Positions 903 through 48,987 of a stretch of DNA of 64,000 nt are shown in pieces. A model generated the notes under the pieces. The model did not search any database. It was not told the DNA's origin and saw only the letters and a list, made by a program, of their open reading frames with translations. Numbering within the stretch: the stretch's first letter is position 1; each line of letters starts with the position of its first letter. The DNA is from Evansella clarkii (GTDB lineage: Bacteria > Bacillota > Bacilli > Bacillales > Salisediminibacteriaceae), in the NCBI RefSeq assembly GCF_002019695.1, contig NZ_KV917376.1:5028774-5092773 (forward strand), written 5' to 3'. Made by a program: the position numbers and the translations under genes.

Positions 903-1085
903 ATCCTGAACTGCCTCCTTTCCCACTCCATAAAGTATCTTATATATCCTTTCCCTTCAGGTACTGCATATAAAATCATTTAAGCAGAAAAATAAGTTTT
1001 ACATAAATTATAGGGTGATTCTTCATGTAATTTTGTTTATAATGAGGAATTGGAGCATTTAACTTAACGAGGAAGGACCATGTAT

Positions 1086-2630
1086 ATGTCTAATGAAACA
1101 CCACGCCGGACATTTGCGATTATATCCCACCCTGACGCAGGGAAAACAACTTTAACAGAGAAACTCCTGTTCCTCGGTGGAGGAATTCGCAGCGCCGGAA
1201 CAGTAAAAGGTAAAAAATCAGGCAAATTCGCTACTTCAGACTGGATGGAGATTGAAAAGCAAAGAGGTATTTCTGTTACTTCCAGTGTAATGCAGCTTAT
1301 CTATAATGACGTACAAATTAACATTCTTGATACACCTGGCCACCAGGATTTCAGTGAAGATACGTACCGTACTTTAACTGCCGTCGATACAGCGGTAATG
1401 GTAATTGACAGTGTAAAAGGAATCGAAGCTCAAACTCTGAAACTTTTTAAAGTTTGCCGCATGCGCGGTATCCCTATTCTCACCTTTATTAACAAACTGG
1501 ACCGTGAAGGAAAAGAACCGCTTGATCTTCTGGCAGAGATTGAAGAAGTTCTTGAGATGGAAACCTATCCAATGAACTGGCCGATCGGAATGGGAAAAAC
1601 ATTAAAAGGAATCTACAGCATCCCGGATGAAAAAATTGAAGTTTTTAACGAGTCCCATGAACGTGAAATTGTCTCCTACTCCGAGCAGCATGTTCTTGCA
1701 GATTATGAAAAAGAAAAACTGGAAGAAGATATTATGCTTCTTGCAGAAGCAGGAAACGAATTCACAATGGAAAAGGTACAGAAAGGGCAGCTCACTCCTG
1801 TATTTTTCGGTAGTGCCCTCTCAAGTTTTGGTGTTCAGTCTTTCTTAGATCAGTTTGTGAAACTGGCAGCTGAGCCACAGCCAAGAAAGGCCTCCGGAGA
1901 GCTGCTTGAACCGGAAAGCAATAAATTCTCAGCGTTTGTTTTTAAAATTCAGGCGAATATGAACCCAAACCACCGGGATCGGATTGCCTTTCTCCGTGTC
2001 TGTTCAGGCAAATTTGAGCGTGGAATGGAAGTACTCCTTTCCCGTACAGGCAAAAAGATGAAACTCAACCAGTCACATTCTTTTTTCGCTTCTGATCGTG
2101 CATCCGTTGATATTGCTATGCCAGGCGATATTATTGGTATTTACGACTCAGGCAACTTCCAGGTTGGTGACACGATTGTTACTGGAAATGAACGTCTTGT
2201 TTATGAAGAAATGCCGCAGTTCCCTCCTGAGAAATTCGCAAAGGTCTATGCTAAGAATGCATTGAAACATAAGCAGTACCATAAAGGGATGGAACAGCTC
2301 GTTCAGGAAGGTACTATTCAGCTCTATAAAACTCCGTACTTTGAAGACTTTATCATCGGAGCTGTCGGTGAACTGCAGTTTCAGGTATTTGAGTACAGAA
2401 TGAAAAATGAATATAACGTAGATATTGAATTCCATCATATGACCCACGAGCTTGCCCGCTGGGTAACCGGCGGCGAAGTTACTGACAAAATGACCGACAG
2501 CCGTAAAATGCTTGTTAATGACAGCCAGGGACGTCCGGTTATATTGTTCGAAAATGAGTTTGCCCTCAGATATTTCCAGGATAAACATCCGGACCTGAAG
2601 TTATCAACAGGCTGGGAGCTGCTGGAATAG
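1086..2630 (+). CDS. prfC: Peptide chain release factor 3 (RF3)
   Basis: RF3 is a translational GTPase that removes RF1/RF2 from the ribosome after peptide release. The GTPase domain shows HPDAGKTT (residues 15-22), the switch segment [17 protein letters not shown] (82-89) and NKLD (136-139). Domain II and the RF3-specific C-terminal domain follow, and 514 residues is normal for the family. AGGAAGG lies nine bases before the ATG at 1086. Another in-frame ATG at 1080 is only three bases from that site, so I prefer 1086. The gene is monocistronic, with a strong hairpin terminator directly after the stop. To my knowledge B. subtilis lacks RF3, so its presence separates this organism from that species. 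Confidence 0.95.
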
Positions 2631-7985: not shown

Positions 7986-8077
7986 AGAACGTGCATCATG
8001 CTCTCTGTTTTAATGCAGGTAAATCATCCAGTGTACAATACCATACCTTCATTTAAAGCAATTCCTGCGGTCAAGGG

Positions 8078-8469
8078 ATGAATCGGACTCTTTCTGGAAT
8101 TCAGAGGGGACTGTTACCGATCTCAACGTATGAATCGGTCTCTTTCTGGTATTCAGACGTGGCTGTTACCTTTCTCAACGCATGAATCAGCCTCTTTCTG
8201 GAATTCAGACGTGGCTGTTACCTTTCTCAACGCATGAATCGGACTCTTTCTGGAACTCAGAGGGGACTGTTATCATTCTCAACGTATGAATCGGTCTCTT
8301 TCTGGAATTCAGACGTGGCTGTTACCGATCTCAACGCATGAATCACACTCTTTCTGGAATTCAGAGAGGACTGTTACCGATCTCAACGTATGAATCAGTC
8401 TCTTTCTGGAATTCAGAGGGGATTGTTACCGATCTCAACGTATGAATCGGACTCTTTCTGGTATTCAGG
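8078..8469. repeat. 52-bp direct repeat array, 7 full units plus a partial
   Basis: Units begin at 8078, 8130, 8182, 8234, 8286, 8338, 8390 and 8442, always exactly 52 bases apart, with no spacers. Invariant pieces are ATGAATC, CTCTTTCTGG, TTCAG (or CTCAG) and TCTCAACG. Variable positions cluster at unit bases 8-10, 28-33 and 42-44, with two main sub-types (AGAGGGGACTG and AGACGTGGCTG) interleaved. In most units CCGAT and ATCGG across a unit junction form a small hairpin. A 52-base period shifts frame each unit and stops interrupt it, so it is not coding. Confidence 0.9.
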
Positions 8470-45576: not shown

Positions 45577-46719
45577 TCATATGAGGTTATTTTCAAGCAT
45601 TTCCAGTCCTTTTTCTATTTCTATCTGGACATTTTTATCTTTTTCTCTTTCTTTCGCCTTCATCAGCATGCTGTATGACTCTTTAGTGCCAATTTTCCCG
45701 ATAGCCCATGCGGCAGTTCCCCGGATGACCGGCCTCGGATCAGTCTCTAACAAATCATTAAGTTCAGGGACAGCATCTTCTTCTTTAAAGTGAGCAAGAG
45801 CGATTATCGCATTCCTTTGTATCGGCTTTTTCCCTCTCCATGATCCTGAAATCGGACCAAATTTTTCTTTGAATTCCCGGTTGCTGATTTTAAGGAGCGG
45901 AATCAGTTTAGGTTTTACCACCTCATGGTCCGGCTCCATTTCCGGATGGTGATGTGTGTCCTTCCCCTTATTCACAGGACATACTACCTGGCACGTATCA
46001 CAACCATATAATCTGTTCCCCAGTTTCTGTCTGTATTGTTCTGGGAGAAAATCTTTTGTTTGTGTTAAAAATGCAATGCATTTATTTGAATCAAGCTGTC
46101 CACCTTGCACTAAAGCTCCGGTAGGACAGGCTTCAACACATTTATTACATGTTCCGCACTGATCTTCAAGTGGAATATCAGGCGGAATATCCAAGGTTGT
46201 AATCATCTCACCCAGATAAACATAAGAGCCGAATTCAGGAGTAATAATGGCACAGTTTTTCCCACTCCAGCCTATCCCTGCCCTTTCAGCCACTGCCCGG
46301 TCAGAAAGCTCCCCTGTATCAACCATAGAAACGCATTTTTCACCAGGAACTTTTTCTGCTATAAATTCTTCAAGCATCTTCAGTTTTCTCCTGAGAATAT
46401 TATGATAGTCCTCTCCCCAGGAGGCACGGCAGAACAAGCCTCTTCGCTCCCCTTTTTTAGAACGGGGAGCGTTTTTTAATTTAGATGGGTAGGCAAGCGC
46501 GATGGAAATAATGGACTTTGCCTCAGGAAGAGTCTGCTGGGGCTCTGTACGCTCCTGGATCGTACCTTTTTCAAAACCCGACTGATAGCCTAATTCCTGC
46601 TGTGTCTCAAGCCTGGATTTCAATGATACGAAGGGATCCGCGGAGGCAAAGCCAATCTTATCAATCCCTATAAGCTTACTATATGCAATAATATCTTCTT
46701 TCAATTGGGCATTTGCCAC
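45577..46719 (-). CDS. queG: Epoxyqueuosine reductase
   Basis: 380 residues. A cobalamin-dependent enzyme carries out the final step of queuosine synthesis on tRNA (epoxyqueuosine to queuosine). The N-terminal domain is followed by two 4Fe-4S sites: CGTCNKCVEACPTG and CDTCQVVCPVNKG. C-terminal HEAT-like repeats start near residue 280 (NAIIALAHFKEEDAVPELNDL). A GTG at 46719 sits at a good distance after GAAGGTGA. This is YhbA of B. subtilis, in the same neighbourhood. Confidence 0.93.
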   Translation of the reverse strand: MANAQLKEDIIAYSKLIGIDKIGFASADPFVSLKSRLETQQELGYQSGFEKGTIQERTEPQQTLPEAKSIISIALAYPSKLKNAPRSKKGERRGLFCRASWGEDYHNILRRKLKMLEEFIAEKVPGEKCVSMVDTGELSDRAVAERAGIGWSGKNCAIITPEFGSYVYLGEMITTLDIPPDIPLEDQCGTCNKCVEACPTGALVQGGQLDSNKCIAFLTQTKDFLPEQYRQKLGNRLYGCDTCQVVCPVNKGKDTHHHPEMEPDHEVVKPKLIPLLKISNREFKEKFGPISGSWRGKKPIQRNAIIALAHFKEEDAVPELNDLLETDPRPVIRGTAAWAIGKIGTKESYSMLMKAKEREKDKNVQIEIEKGLEMLENNLI

Positions 46720-46824
46720 TGGAATCACCTTCTTTCTTTTTTAACTGTTCTGCAATAAAATACATTTTTATAAGGTCTCGCATGAGGACCACGCAGCAGC
46801 CTGCTTGATCGCATGTTTAAACAT

Positions 46825-46862
46825 TAAAAAAGCAGCGACTCCCTGCAGGACCACTACTTTTA
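46825..46862 (-). terminator. tRNA-Gly terminator
   Basis: Leftward AGTAGTGGTCC and GGAGTCGCTGCT form an imperfect stem and run into TTTTTT, about 30 bases after the tRNA. Confidence 0.65.
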
Positions 46863-46891
46863 TTCTCTGTATCATATTTAAATTAAGATGA

Positions 46892-46965
46892 TGGAGCGGG
46901 TGATGGGAATCGAACCCACGACATCAGCTTGGAAGGCTGAGGTTTTACCACTAAACTACACCCGC
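46892..46965 (-). tRNA. tRNA-Gly (TCC), CCA encoded
   Basis: Complete cloverleaf: acceptor GCGGGTG / CACCCGC, discriminator T and encoded CCA, anticodon loop CTTCCAA, T-arm GGTTCGATT. Its 5' end is the boundary of the 154-bp repeats described next. Confidence 0.97.
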
Positions 46966-47282
46966 ATGATTTTCTGGGGAGACTTCGGCTGCTTTCCACG
47001 GCCGGACATGTCTCTTCCTCTTCAAGCTTATGCTCCGTAGCGTATACGTCGAGACAACACGCTGCTGTTGCATAGATGCTTTGCTCGTGGCTGAGGTTTT
47101 ACCACTAAACTACACCCGCATGATTTTCTGGGGAGACTTCGGCTGCTTTCCACGGCCGGACATGTCTCTTCCTCTTCAAGCTTATGCTCCGTAGCGTATA
47201 CGTCGAGACAACTCGCTGCTGTTGCATAGATGCTTTGCTCGTGGCTGAGGTTTTACCACTAAACTACACCCGCATGATTTTC
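46935..47282 (-). repeat. 154-bp tandem repeat carrying the 5' half of tRNA-Gly
   Basis: Units at 46935-47088 and 47089-47242 and a partial third at 47243-47282 repeat with period 154 bases; I noticed one base difference between the two full units (near 47060/47214). Each unit has the 31 bases of tRNA-Gly from the 5' end into the anticodon stem, plus upstream flank, joined to a 114-base segment with GTCTC/GAGAC inverted pairs. On the leftward transcript two truncated tRNA 5' halves precede the intact tRNA. Confidence 0.9.
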
Positions 47283-47462
47283 AGCTGATTTATGGTATTT
47301 ATTTTACAAGGTGAAAGCTGGATTGTCAAATGAAGCTGGAAGGAAGACCTTTAGATTTCTTCCGGTACTTCAACAGAACACATTACCTTGTGCAGGGACT
47401 GCAAGATCCCGACGAAGTGTGGCAAGGCAAGAATATTATAAACTTATCTTTTAATTTACTAA
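47283..47462. other. Short intergenic stretch without recognised features
   Basis: No reading frame with a start signal, no strong hairpin. It may hold the promoter for the tRNA-Gly unit. Confidence 0.35.
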
Positions 47463-47493
47463 AGGGTCTGGTTATTCCCATCTCCAGACCCTT
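47463..47493 (-). terminator. Hairpin after the 27-residue gene
   Basis: GGGTCTGG and CCAGACCC with a 12-base loop, 22 bases past the stop, with a short T tail in the leftward direction. Confidence 0.5.
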
Positions 47494-47514
47494 CAGCCCT
47501 TAGCTGCTGCCCAT

Positions 47515-47598
47515 TTACCTTCTGCCTCTCGTCACTCTTCTCATCAGCCCTCTGAACAGCCTGTACATAACATATTTCTTAAATAAACGAACCAACAT
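47515..47598 (-). CDS. 27-residue arginine-rich peptide
   Basis: MLVRLFKKYVMYRLFRGLMR followed by RVTRGRR: eleven basic residues alternating with hydrophobic ones, an amphipathic helix pattern. GGCGGTGA lies about five bases before the ATG and a hairpin follows. Such peptides can bind RNA or membranes, or be toxic; no antitoxin-like RNA is apparent. Coding status is moderate. Confidence 0.4.
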   Translation of the reverse strand: MLVRLFKKYVMYRLFRGLMRRVTRGRR

Positions 47599-47696
47599 CT
47601 TTTCACCGCCATTCTTTTGGTAGACAAATTCATACATTTCTTATTTTGTTTATTTCCCGGGAATTATATATAAAAAACAATTATTAATGCCTGGAA

Positions 47697-47731
47697 GAAA
47701 AAATGACCGTTCTGAACTGAACGGTCATCTT
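47697..47731 (-). terminator. Terminator of the DUF2188 gene
   Basis: ATGACCGTTC and GAACGGTCAT pair around a six-base loop and run into TTTTTTC. Confidence 0.85.
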
Positions 47732-47739
47732 GTATTTAA

Positions 47740-47949
47740 TTATTTATAAACATGCTCATCCACAATTTCGTGCAAGTGATTATAGATGACTAAGCGGCTT
47801 GGCTTATTTTCTTCCGCCAGCTTCTTTCCTTCCGCGATGGCATCGTCCAGATTATCAAATGAAGAAGTTGGTGCAGTATTTTCTATCTTAACATACCAAT
47901 GCTCCACACTCTCGCCAGTTTTTTCTGCTCTCACTGTATATTCTCTCAT
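47740..47949 (-). CDS. DUF2188 stress-type protein
   Basis: 69 residues. The DUF2188 pattern is complete: VEHWYVKIENTAPTSSFDNLDDAIAEGKKLAEENKPSRLVIYN followed by LHEIVDEHVY. These small proteins are widespread and of unknown action, often under general stress control. AGAGGTGAG precedes the ATG. A sigma-B promoter lies 37 bases upstream of the start codon, paired with a divergent one for the SDR gene. Confidence 0.85.
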   Translation of the reverse strand: MREYTVRAEKTGESVEHWYVKIENTAPTSSFDNLDDAIAEGKKLAEENKPSRLVIYNHLHEIVDEHVYK

Positions 47950-47985
47950 GAATGCTCACCTCTTTTTTAACTGTTTAGTGAGGCT

Positions 47986-48011
47986 CTACCCGTTCAAAAA
48001 AATCTTTAAAC
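47986..48011 (-). promoter_or_regulatory. Sigma-B promoter of the DUF2188 gene
   Basis: Leftward GTTTAA (48006-48011), 14-base spacer, GGGTAG (47986-47991), against the sigma-B consensus GTTTAA-N12-15-GGGTAT. Confidence 0.75.
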
Positions 48012-48026
48012 GCAATCACGTTTCTG

Positions 48027-48052
48027 GTTTAAGTCCTCTTAAGATAGGTTAT
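48027..48052 (+). promoter_or_regulatory. Sigma-B promoter of the SDR gene
   Basis: Rightward GTTTAA (48027-48032), 14-base spacer, GGTTAT (48047-48052). It starts 15 bases from the divergent sigma-B promoter. Confidence 0.75.
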
Positions 48053-48108
48053 TCAAAACTAAATAAGGCAATATAAACTATGAGATTCATTAAGGAGGAT
48101 GAGACAAT

Positions 48109-48987
48109 ATGGAATACGATAAAATTAAGAACAGACAGAAAGATGGACAGCCTGCTCAGGAACAGGACCGACAGCCTGGTTTTGAAAATGAAATGAATCC
48201 GGAACCTATATACGACGATCCTGATTATAAAGGAAGCGGGAAGCTGAAAGGAAAAGTAGTCCTTCTTACCGGCGGAGACAGTGGTATTGGGCGCGCAGCC
48301 GCTATAGCTTTTGCGAAGGAAGGGGCAAAGCTGGCCATAGTATATAAGGACGAGCATGAAGATGCTGAGAAAACAAAGTCCGAGGTTGAAAAGTATGACA
48401 GCGAATGCCTGCTCCTTTCAGGTGATGTTGGTGAGGAAGACTTTTGTCAGGATGCAGTTCAAAAAACGATCGATCAGTACGGGAAATTAGATACGTTAGT
48501 TAATAATGCTGCAGAACAGCATTATCAGGAAAAAATTGAGGATATTTCTACAGAGCAGATGGAAAGGACTTTTAAAACAAATATTTTCTCTGCATTCCAT
48601 TTTATTAAAGCTGCCATGCCTCATCTAAAAGAAGGAAGCACTATTATAAATACTGTTTCGGTTGTTCATTACAAAGGGATGCCAGTTTTAATGGATTATG
48701 CTGCTACAAAAGGAGCACTCGTAGCACTAACTCGTTCCCTTTCCCAGAACATCGTCTCTAAAGGGATCAGGGTAAATGCGGTAGCGCCTGGGCCAATCTG
48801 GACTCCGTTAATACCTTCTTCCTTCCCTTCTGAAAACGTTGAAGAATTTGGACTAAACAGCCCAATGGGACGTCCAGGGCAACCGGCAGAACTTGCTCCT
48901 GCGTATGTATATCTCGCTTCAGGCGACTCTTCTTATGTATCAGGACAGGTGATTCATATCAATGGCGGCGATATAGTTAATGGTTAA
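48109..48987 (+). CDS. Short-chain dehydrogenase, general-stress type
   Basis: 292 residues: a 45-residue polar N-terminal extension (KNRQKDGQPAQEQDRQPGFE), then an SDR domain with the cofactor motif TGGDSGIG (54-61), NNAA (133-136), and catalytic S185, Y198 and K202 (YAATKG). The C-terminal end SSYVSGQVIHINGGDIVNG is typical. The N-terminal extension and gene type match YhxC/YdaD-like stress proteins of B. subtilis. Substrate unknown; cofactor probably NAD(P). AAGGAGGATGAG precedes the ATG. Under a sigma-B promoter. Confidence 0.93.
   Translation: MEYDKIKNRQKDGQPAQEQDRQPGFENEMNPEPIYDDPDYKGSGKLKGKVVLLTGGDSGIGRAAAIAFAKEGAKLAIVYKDEHEDAEKTKSEVEKYDSECLLLSGDVGEEDFCQDAVQKTIDQYGKLDTLVNNAAEQHYQEKIEDISTEQMERTFKTNIFSAFHFIKAAMPHLKEGSTIINTVSVVHYKGMPVLMDYAATKGALVALTRSLSQNIVSKGIRVNAVAPGPIWTPLIPSSFPSENVEEFGLNSPMGRPGQPAELAPAYVYLASGDSSYVSGQVIHINGGDIVNG

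Follow-up and report, generated by a model that had tools for sequence, protein, structure and literature searches.

The tRNA-Gly locus and its upstream units

The 64,000-nt stretch of Evansella clarkii DNA analysed here (hereinafter referred to as the window) contains a tRNA-Gly gene preceded by two 154-nt units (Table 1). In transcription order, each unit consists of a 9-nt leader, nt 1-31 of the tRNA and a 114-nt segment composed of an 80-nt core and a 34-nt linker. An identical 40-nt sequence (leader plus tRNA nt 1-31) was found at 46935-46974, 47089-47128 and 47243-47282, and the 154-nt stretches at 46935-47088 and 47089-47242 were 99% identical (TRF score 689). Together with the gene predicted by ARAGORN, these repeats confirmed the two units that a first-pass annotation of this DNA had reported before tRNA-Gly(TCC). 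That the duplicated part is the 5' side of the tRNA, and not the 3' side as at usual integration sites, had also been recognized correctly. The same annotation had placed the cut inside the anticodon stem and had described the 114-base segment as a palindrome. Neither held: the last base of the fragment, nt 31, is the first base of the anticodon loop, and the segment, being core plus linker, is not a DNA palindrome over its full length.

Table 1. Features of the tRNA-Gly(TCC) locus, in window coordinates and in transcription order.
Feature	Position	Strand	Basis or remark
Sigma-70-like promoter TTGACA-17-TAAAAT, 5' of both units	47301..47329	-	11/12 matches
Leader copy 1, 9 nt, precedes fragment 1	47274..47282	-	Repeat comparison
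tRNA-Gly 5' fragment 1, nt 1-31, 3' end ..CAGCC (AGYN)	47243..47273	-	Repeat comparison, junction motif
Core 1, 80 nt, ACGAGC...GAGACA	47163..47242	-	Family alignment, covariation
Core 1 internal strand CGAGTTGTCTC	47205-47215	-	Complementary to 47238-47242 (two G-A pairs) and 47163-47168
Linker 1, 34 nt; base 1 (T) is the native tRNA-Gly continuation, base 2 differs	47129..47162	-	
Leader copy 2, 9 nt	47120..47128	-	Repeat comparison
tRNA-Gly 5' fragment 2, nt 1-31	47089..47119	-	Repeat comparison
Core 2, 80 nt; one base (47059) unlike core 1	47009..47088	-	
Linker 2, 34 nt	46975..47008	-	
Leader adjoining the intact gene, 9 nt	46966..46974	-	Repeat comparison
Intact tRNA-Gly, anticodon TCC	46892..46965	-	ARAGORN; Rfam RF00005, 73.5 bits

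A promoter scan 5' of fragment 1 gave one site, with an average of 0.7 sites in shuffled sequences. Because this likely promoter lies 5' of the first fragment, transcription from it would cover both units, and the expected transcript would run fragment, core, fragment, core, tRNA. This agrees with the earlier proposal of three 5'-half copies on the primary transcript. An Rfam scan of positions 46000-48500 (E≤1) returned the tRNA and one sub-threshold plastid match, and a scan of nine loci at gathering thresholds returned tRNA and rRNA only; membership in a known Rfam family was therefore not supported, as no family other than tRNA or rRNA exceeded its gathering threshold in the stretches scanned. 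The reading frame 3' of tRNA-Gly (45577-46728) presumably belongs with QueG (epoxyqueuosine reductase), which we take it to resemble. Elsewhere in the window, TRF detected a 52-bp tandem repeat with 7.7 copies (8071-8468).

Distribution, position and structure of the core

A BLAST search of the window locus against its own genome gave 50 matches. A covariance model (R1) was built from an alignment of 51 core copies; its flanks contain CAGNN, and AGYN contexts may be favoured. The first-pass annotation had proposed looking for the 114-base unit elsewhere, and its 80-nt core indeed proved to be dispersed, with at least 120 copies in the own genome (R1, E≤0.01; a lower bound, with 150 candidates scored). 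R1 matches were found in 38 of 60 relatives, the own genome included; within the order, 72 of 199 genomes, representing 40 of 98 genera, had one (E≤1e-8). In a sample of the phylum, only the own genome among 149 carried the core. A search with the junction pattern (D-loop or Gly) yielded 73 named stretches with 13 genus names; the pattern demanded CTCAGYY, so that Gly and D-loop classes are over-represented among them. The tally of matches across loci was 107, including 6 in own loci. The 114-nt segment gave no plasmid or phage match (blastn, E≤0.01) and the exact core pattern was absent from IMG/VR viral records; a phage or plasmid origin of the core was rejected as far as these phage, plasmid and IMG/VR records reach.

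Regular-expression extraction identified 220 distinct cores in the loci studied, of which 143 had a tRNA gene at most 1500 nt downstream; the other 77 were non-tRNA copies or lay at locus ends. In 141 of the 143, the core was preceded by a 5' fragment of the same downstream tRNA, and the whole gene, predicted complete by ARAGORN, then followed. One of the remaining two (L131) resembles a degraded Phe fragment and the other (L184) a truncated first unit. The fragments comprised the first 12 to 31 nt of the tRNA. Gly units with the core after nt 31 were the commonest class (55/141), followed by cores after nt 17 in Lys (22 units), Ala (16), Phe (9), Val (7) and Arg (5). Three different CAT tRNAs were occupied after nt 14 (12 units; presumably the initiator), nt 12 (3) and nt 27 (3). 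Further cores lay after nt 12 in Lys (3) and Phe (2) and after nt 26 in Phe (3) and Thr (1). Counting Phe 26 and 27 as one site, since the predicted gene start was off by a base, gives 15 tRNA/site classes, and the occupied tRNAs cover eight amino acids. The 5'-half duplication had been called unusual: the 5' side is indeed the part duplicated, but the arrangement is common to many genera and to tRNAs for eight amino acids. At G003, a tRNA-Arg(TCT) behind a core unit (L152, approximately 974-1343, minus strand) contained an anticodon-arm insert resembling a group I intron by its look. At L089:2162-2400 and L105 (minus strand), two cores were present per tRNA-Lys pseudo-copy, and the bases between them include the native CAGTTGGT.

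The fragments were closely similar to the intact genes, with 109 of the 141 units identical, 25 with one mismatch, 5 with two and 2 with three. Outside the motif, 18 mismatches in 1722 nt were counted in 98 units with the CTCAGYY junction (8 of 106 cores were unplaced, 7 running off locus ends and one having an insert in its tRNA). In 68 single units, the leaders of fragment and gene were alike above control over approximately 11 nt, and identity over the last 8 bases was 0.56-0.82 vs 0.39-0.68 in controls.

The fragment 3' end was AGYN in 141/141 units and 15/15 classes, the background frequency being 10.7% at positions 10-40 of these tRNAs. Pattern and model flanks together favour CAG contexts, but the junction pattern did not demand the classes at nt 12, 14 and 26/27. 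Past the core, agreement of bases 1-5 with the native tRNA continuation was 0.96, 0.88, 0.68, 0.70 and 0.41 with classes weighted equally, compared with 0.43, 0.30, 0.30, 0.23 and 0.25 in controls (comparison with other classes), and reached control level from position 6. Unweighted, over all units, the values were 0.98, 0.58, 0.36, 0.47 and 0.38. Native continuations included GGATAG (Arg), GAGGAC (Phe) and GACGG (Met); Gly units agreed at the first base only. Because the next four to five bases tend to be native tRNA, the core reads, at the level of sequence, as a seamless insert behind AGYN in most classes, with Gly agreeing at one base. A D-loop pattern matched 15 of 397 genomes, and none of the 10 loci examined through it was a simple insertion, in which the entire tRNA remainder would follow the core; L195 and L196 were cores with approximately 10 native bases and the other eight were not cores. 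At 44 non-tRNA copies, no duplicated flanks beat the best control score.

The internal strand CGANTTGTYYC is complementary to the core start (ANGAG), where two of the five pairs would be G-A, and to the last six bases (GRRACA). Across 208 cores, the N7-N38 pair was CG in 175, AT in 26, GC in 5, TA in 1 and CT in 1; thus, all four Watson-Crick types occurred and 207 cores carried one of them. The six-base helix was found in five compensated states (139, 32, 13, 12 and 3 cores), with 9 imperfect. In alignment A3 (131 of 190 non-redundant cores, nine pairs), 99.8% of cells pair, and 57 double-sided changes were counted vs 7.5 ± 2.3 in shuffles (0/500 as high), counts that kinship among the sequences inflates. 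Slid versions of the alignment had a paired fraction of 29-60%. The regular expression behind A3 fixed the pairs 6-39 (except A/G at 6), 10-35 and 40-96, and 45-91 on one side, and left 7-38 and 41-95 to 44-92 free; base 47059, at which the two cores of the window differ, is an A position of the internal strand that it fixes. In this model, the core ends would come together at a single point and bring the tRNA fragment and the 3' flank with them.

Among 45 own-genome copies away from tRNAs, the six-base helix was perfect in 39 and imperfect in 6, and the N-N pair was kept in all 45; compensated variants were present among them. Since pairing is kept in both tRNA and non-tRNA settings, the structure probably serves the element, not one tRNA. 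No convincing helices were found in the variable core stretches. Unusual stability was rejected for the 114-nt segment, which was no better than shuffles (z -0.74), and for the leader (z -0.49). Pairing of bases 5 and 98 (83% paired vs 61% expected) was set aside as explicable by tRNA type, and the idea that core and tRNA must form a D-arm-like hairpin (GCTC..GAGC) was given up, as Met-CAT units with GGAGCA before the core lack it.

Copy number and copies away from tRNA genes

The orthologous site of the window, recognized by matching flanks, was empty in two genomes (G004 and G005) and occupied in six (G001, where a contig end cuts it, G002, G003, G006, G007 and G008). It held three units in G002, two in G008, and one plus a degenerate remnant in G003. 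Elsewhere, arrays of three (L128), eight (L189) and ten (L112) units were found, and units within one array were often identical. The last of these, from Litchfieldia alkalitelluris (L112:5364-6640), repeats a 128-nt unit, made up of a tRNA-Val 5' fragment and a core, ten times in tandem ahead of a tRNA-Val; the locus terminates in the start of a 16S rRNA gene.

In the own genome, inserts of 199, 326 and 544 nt with one, two and three cores, respectively, were missing from the sister genome G003. A target duplication of approximately 10 nt was present at the 199-nt insert and of approximately 5 nt at the 544-nt insert, and G003 has 9 unaligned bases at the site of the 326-nt insert. In these inserts the core is cargo. 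The cores of the 326-nt (L153:7605-7930) and 544-nt (L154:930-1473) inserts stand in inverted arrangements, and the ends of the former, like GGCTCTGTTAA, are presumably ISL3-like. At L035:550-730 and L038:440-500, cores were interrupted by a tandem short repeat containing GCGACGAGTAACCGCAGGAGCA, which has a REP-like look and occurs in several further loci.

In genomes with 1 to 10 listed copies, 20 of 20 fetched loci (18 genomes; picked from the listed matches, with G119 and G039 duplicating named records) lay directly upstream of a tRNA. Because all of these low-copy loci are tRNA leaders, the setting at tRNAs seems to have come first and that as cargo later, as far as this picked sample allows. 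For 101 distinct cores from named and own loci, the nearest neighbour was in the same genus and site for 37, the same genome at another site for 19, another genus and site for 19, another genus at the same site for 14, and the same genus at another site for 12. Since similarity among cores tracks both site and host, many copies are inherited, and the neighbours point to both site inheritance and within-genome spread.

Origin of the units and relation to known elements

We consider a selfish, mobile, structure-dependent insertion element, tolerated since an intact tRNA follows, to be the probable origin of the units. Each unit would be a partial tRNA copy (short leader plus nt 1 to p) with an 80-nt structured element inserted seamlessly after AGYN; past the element would come a few native tRNA bases, the linker and the same tRNA gene in full. 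The 15 tRNA/site classes, plus the cargo in dispersed own-genome inserts, suggest that the element is or was mobile, and the internal strand, complementary to both ends, would bring both insertion junctions together. Insertions at tRNA genes would be tolerated, and persist, because the intact gene lies directly downstream, and recombination between the repeated tRNA pieces would then raise or lower the number of units (0 to 10). The comparison of loci establishes the anatomy of the units, their junctions and target motif, the covariation, the copy-number variation and the empty sites; we infer mobility at tRNA genes, with the splinted ends as the moving form (single-stranded DNA or RNA). Selective survival of insertions with an intact tRNA left behind would not suffice as an explanation unless the duplication belongs to the same event.

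Several observations argue against a mobile element. No enzyme has been linked to it, and a Y1 match is absent from 4 of 29 core-bearing genomes. Fragments stay nearer to the intact tRNA (109/141 identical) than expected of idle debris, which gene conversion could explain. In addition, the D-loop-pattern loci examined included no simple insertion, and the Gly units appear native at one base only. The likeness of cores by site, a sign that many copies are inherited, likewise counts against it.

The main rival is a regulatory leader, which we regard as rather unlikely: the tRNA 5' fragment and core would form a functional leader RNA that controls how the downstream tRNA folds, how RNase P processes it or how abundant it is, e.g. 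through an alternative 5' half. It is in accordance with the retention of the unit upstream of same-strand tRNAs in many genera and with fragments that are well conserved where the duplicated leader bases are just moderately alike. Folding predictions also lean this way, since pairing of the acceptor was 0.985 for the lone gene vs 0.062 for its own 5' strand in the full window transcript, and the upstream fragment was predicted to out-pair the own 5' strand for the 3' acceptor in 62 of 70 units. However, shuffling core and linker left the fragment the winner in 45 of 60 units vs 54 of 60 native (the 70 and 60 units were taken in file order). The predicted win thus mostly reflects the model and the layout. 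The competition between 5' halves suggested in the first-pass annotation may occur; the model prefers the fragment, but shuffled sequences largely reproduce that preference. A regulatory role is further opposed by two of the five own-genome Gly-TCC genes (L004 and L005) being without a unit, by the empty orthologous site in two congeners, and by the pairing that cores keep away from tRNAs (39/45 perfect helix, 45/45 N-N pair).

It is quite unlikely that the core is a non-autonomous REP/IS200-IS605-type element that travels as single-stranded DNA through the action of a Y1 (HUH) transposase, a reading that would specify the enzyme for the mobile element proposed above. Members of the IS200/IS605 family insert seamlessly behind a short target and have structured ends; the core likewise shows seamless junctions, a short target and paired ends. 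A Y1_Tnp match was present in 25 of 29 core-bearing genomes (E≤1e-10), which speaks to presence alone and not to action on the core, but no match was obtained at this threshold in G041, G046, G049 and G158, two of which carry more than 10 cores. No element with a transposase between core ends is known to us, and a Y1 transposase leaves the tRNA 5' duplication without explanation. Two own-genome frames with a Y1 transposase domain (G000:C1:1951473-1951805 and 1576808-1577131; 265 and 214 aa) scored below the best IS200-type matches in relatives and are possibly RAYT-like.

That the units arose by ordinary tandem duplication, with slippage or unequal crossing-over taking in a tRNA start by chance, is very improbable. 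The frequent identity of units in one array and the variable array number fit it, but one core stands behind 15 tRNA/site classes and also far from tRNAs, and the bases past the core continue the tRNA; tandem duplication accounts for array growth, not for the origin of the unit. An assembly artefact, favoured by nothing more than the near-identity of the two units, can be dismissed with near certainty, as the same arrangement occurs in many separately assembled genomes and, at the orthologous locus, six genomes carry units where G004 and G005 have none.

Among known systems, members of the IS200/IS605 family resemble the mobile element that we favour in that the core is inserted without target duplication behind a short target, with contiguous tRNA bases in most classes; to our knowledge, duplication of a tRNA 5' part is not a feature of this family. 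The parallel otherwise draws on the general features of the family (cf. PMC6006769 and PMC8266576). REP/REPIN sequences with RAYT (TnpA-REP) are, like the core, short, structured, present in high copy and thought to be non-autonomous mobile DNA (cf. PMC3733652). Inverted pairs among the non-tRNA core copies add to this likeness, whereas the 80-nt core differs in the internal strand that pairs with both ends and in the tRNA 5' fragments. The type I repeat Bhal-1 of Bacillus halodurans, a 74-nt stem-loop with 36 copies listed, is similar in size, dispersed, structured and from a related species, a likeness at the level of description (PMC2267715). In that work, tRNA genes had been masked and clusters related to tRNAs discarded, which would have hidden the tRNA arrangement; the dispersed core copies may already have been catalogued, e.g. 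as Bhal-1.

Other systems share single features with the unit. Group I introns in bacterial tRNAs are likewise seamless inserts in tRNA sequence, but here the core is followed by no 3' exon and, further on, by the whole gene; group I/II intron covariance models had no match in window positions 46000-48500 (E≤1) or in nine loci (gathering thresholds). The rtT RNA or tyrT repeats of E. coli are tandem units beside a tRNA gene, each holding a piece of the tRNA; these pieces are the 3' end, located downstream, whereas core units hold a 5' fragment upstream of the gene. At integrase-type tRNA sites a piece of the tRNA gene is also duplicated, but on the 3' side and around a large element, compared with the 5' side and an 80-nt core here. 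Some own-genome cores, as cargo of the 199-, 326- and 544-nt inserts (two of three with a short target duplication), are reminiscent of MITEs; unlike in MITEs, the core ends A[N]GAGC and GRRACA are not mutual inverted repeats, and target duplication is absent in tRNAs. A DDE-transposon reading of the tRNA units was ruled out, as they have no terminal repeats and tRNA bases continue past the core.

No tested family matches all defining features of the tRNA unit, and no description of the tRNA 5'-fragment arrangement was found in searches of the open-licence literature; in our judgement, what is new is the tRNA 5'-fragment insertion unit. A more specific form of the mobile-element reading, which we put forward tentatively, is a minimal intron-like mobile element whose internal strand splints both ends, which would insert seamlessly after AGYN in tRNA 5' halves, the insertion process itself leaving an entire tRNA downstream. 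If true, an intron-like element could occupy essential genes without destroying them.

Mobile DNA classically targets tRNA genes, and the tRNA-targeting elements known to us so far rebuild the 3' end. An order-wide element in tRNA 5' parts, with a short target and covarying, splinted ends, points to an undescribed insertion process. Further, many Bacillales tRNA transcripts may bear extra 5' halves, which would provide a natural system for the folding and processing of tRNA precursors under competing 5' halves.
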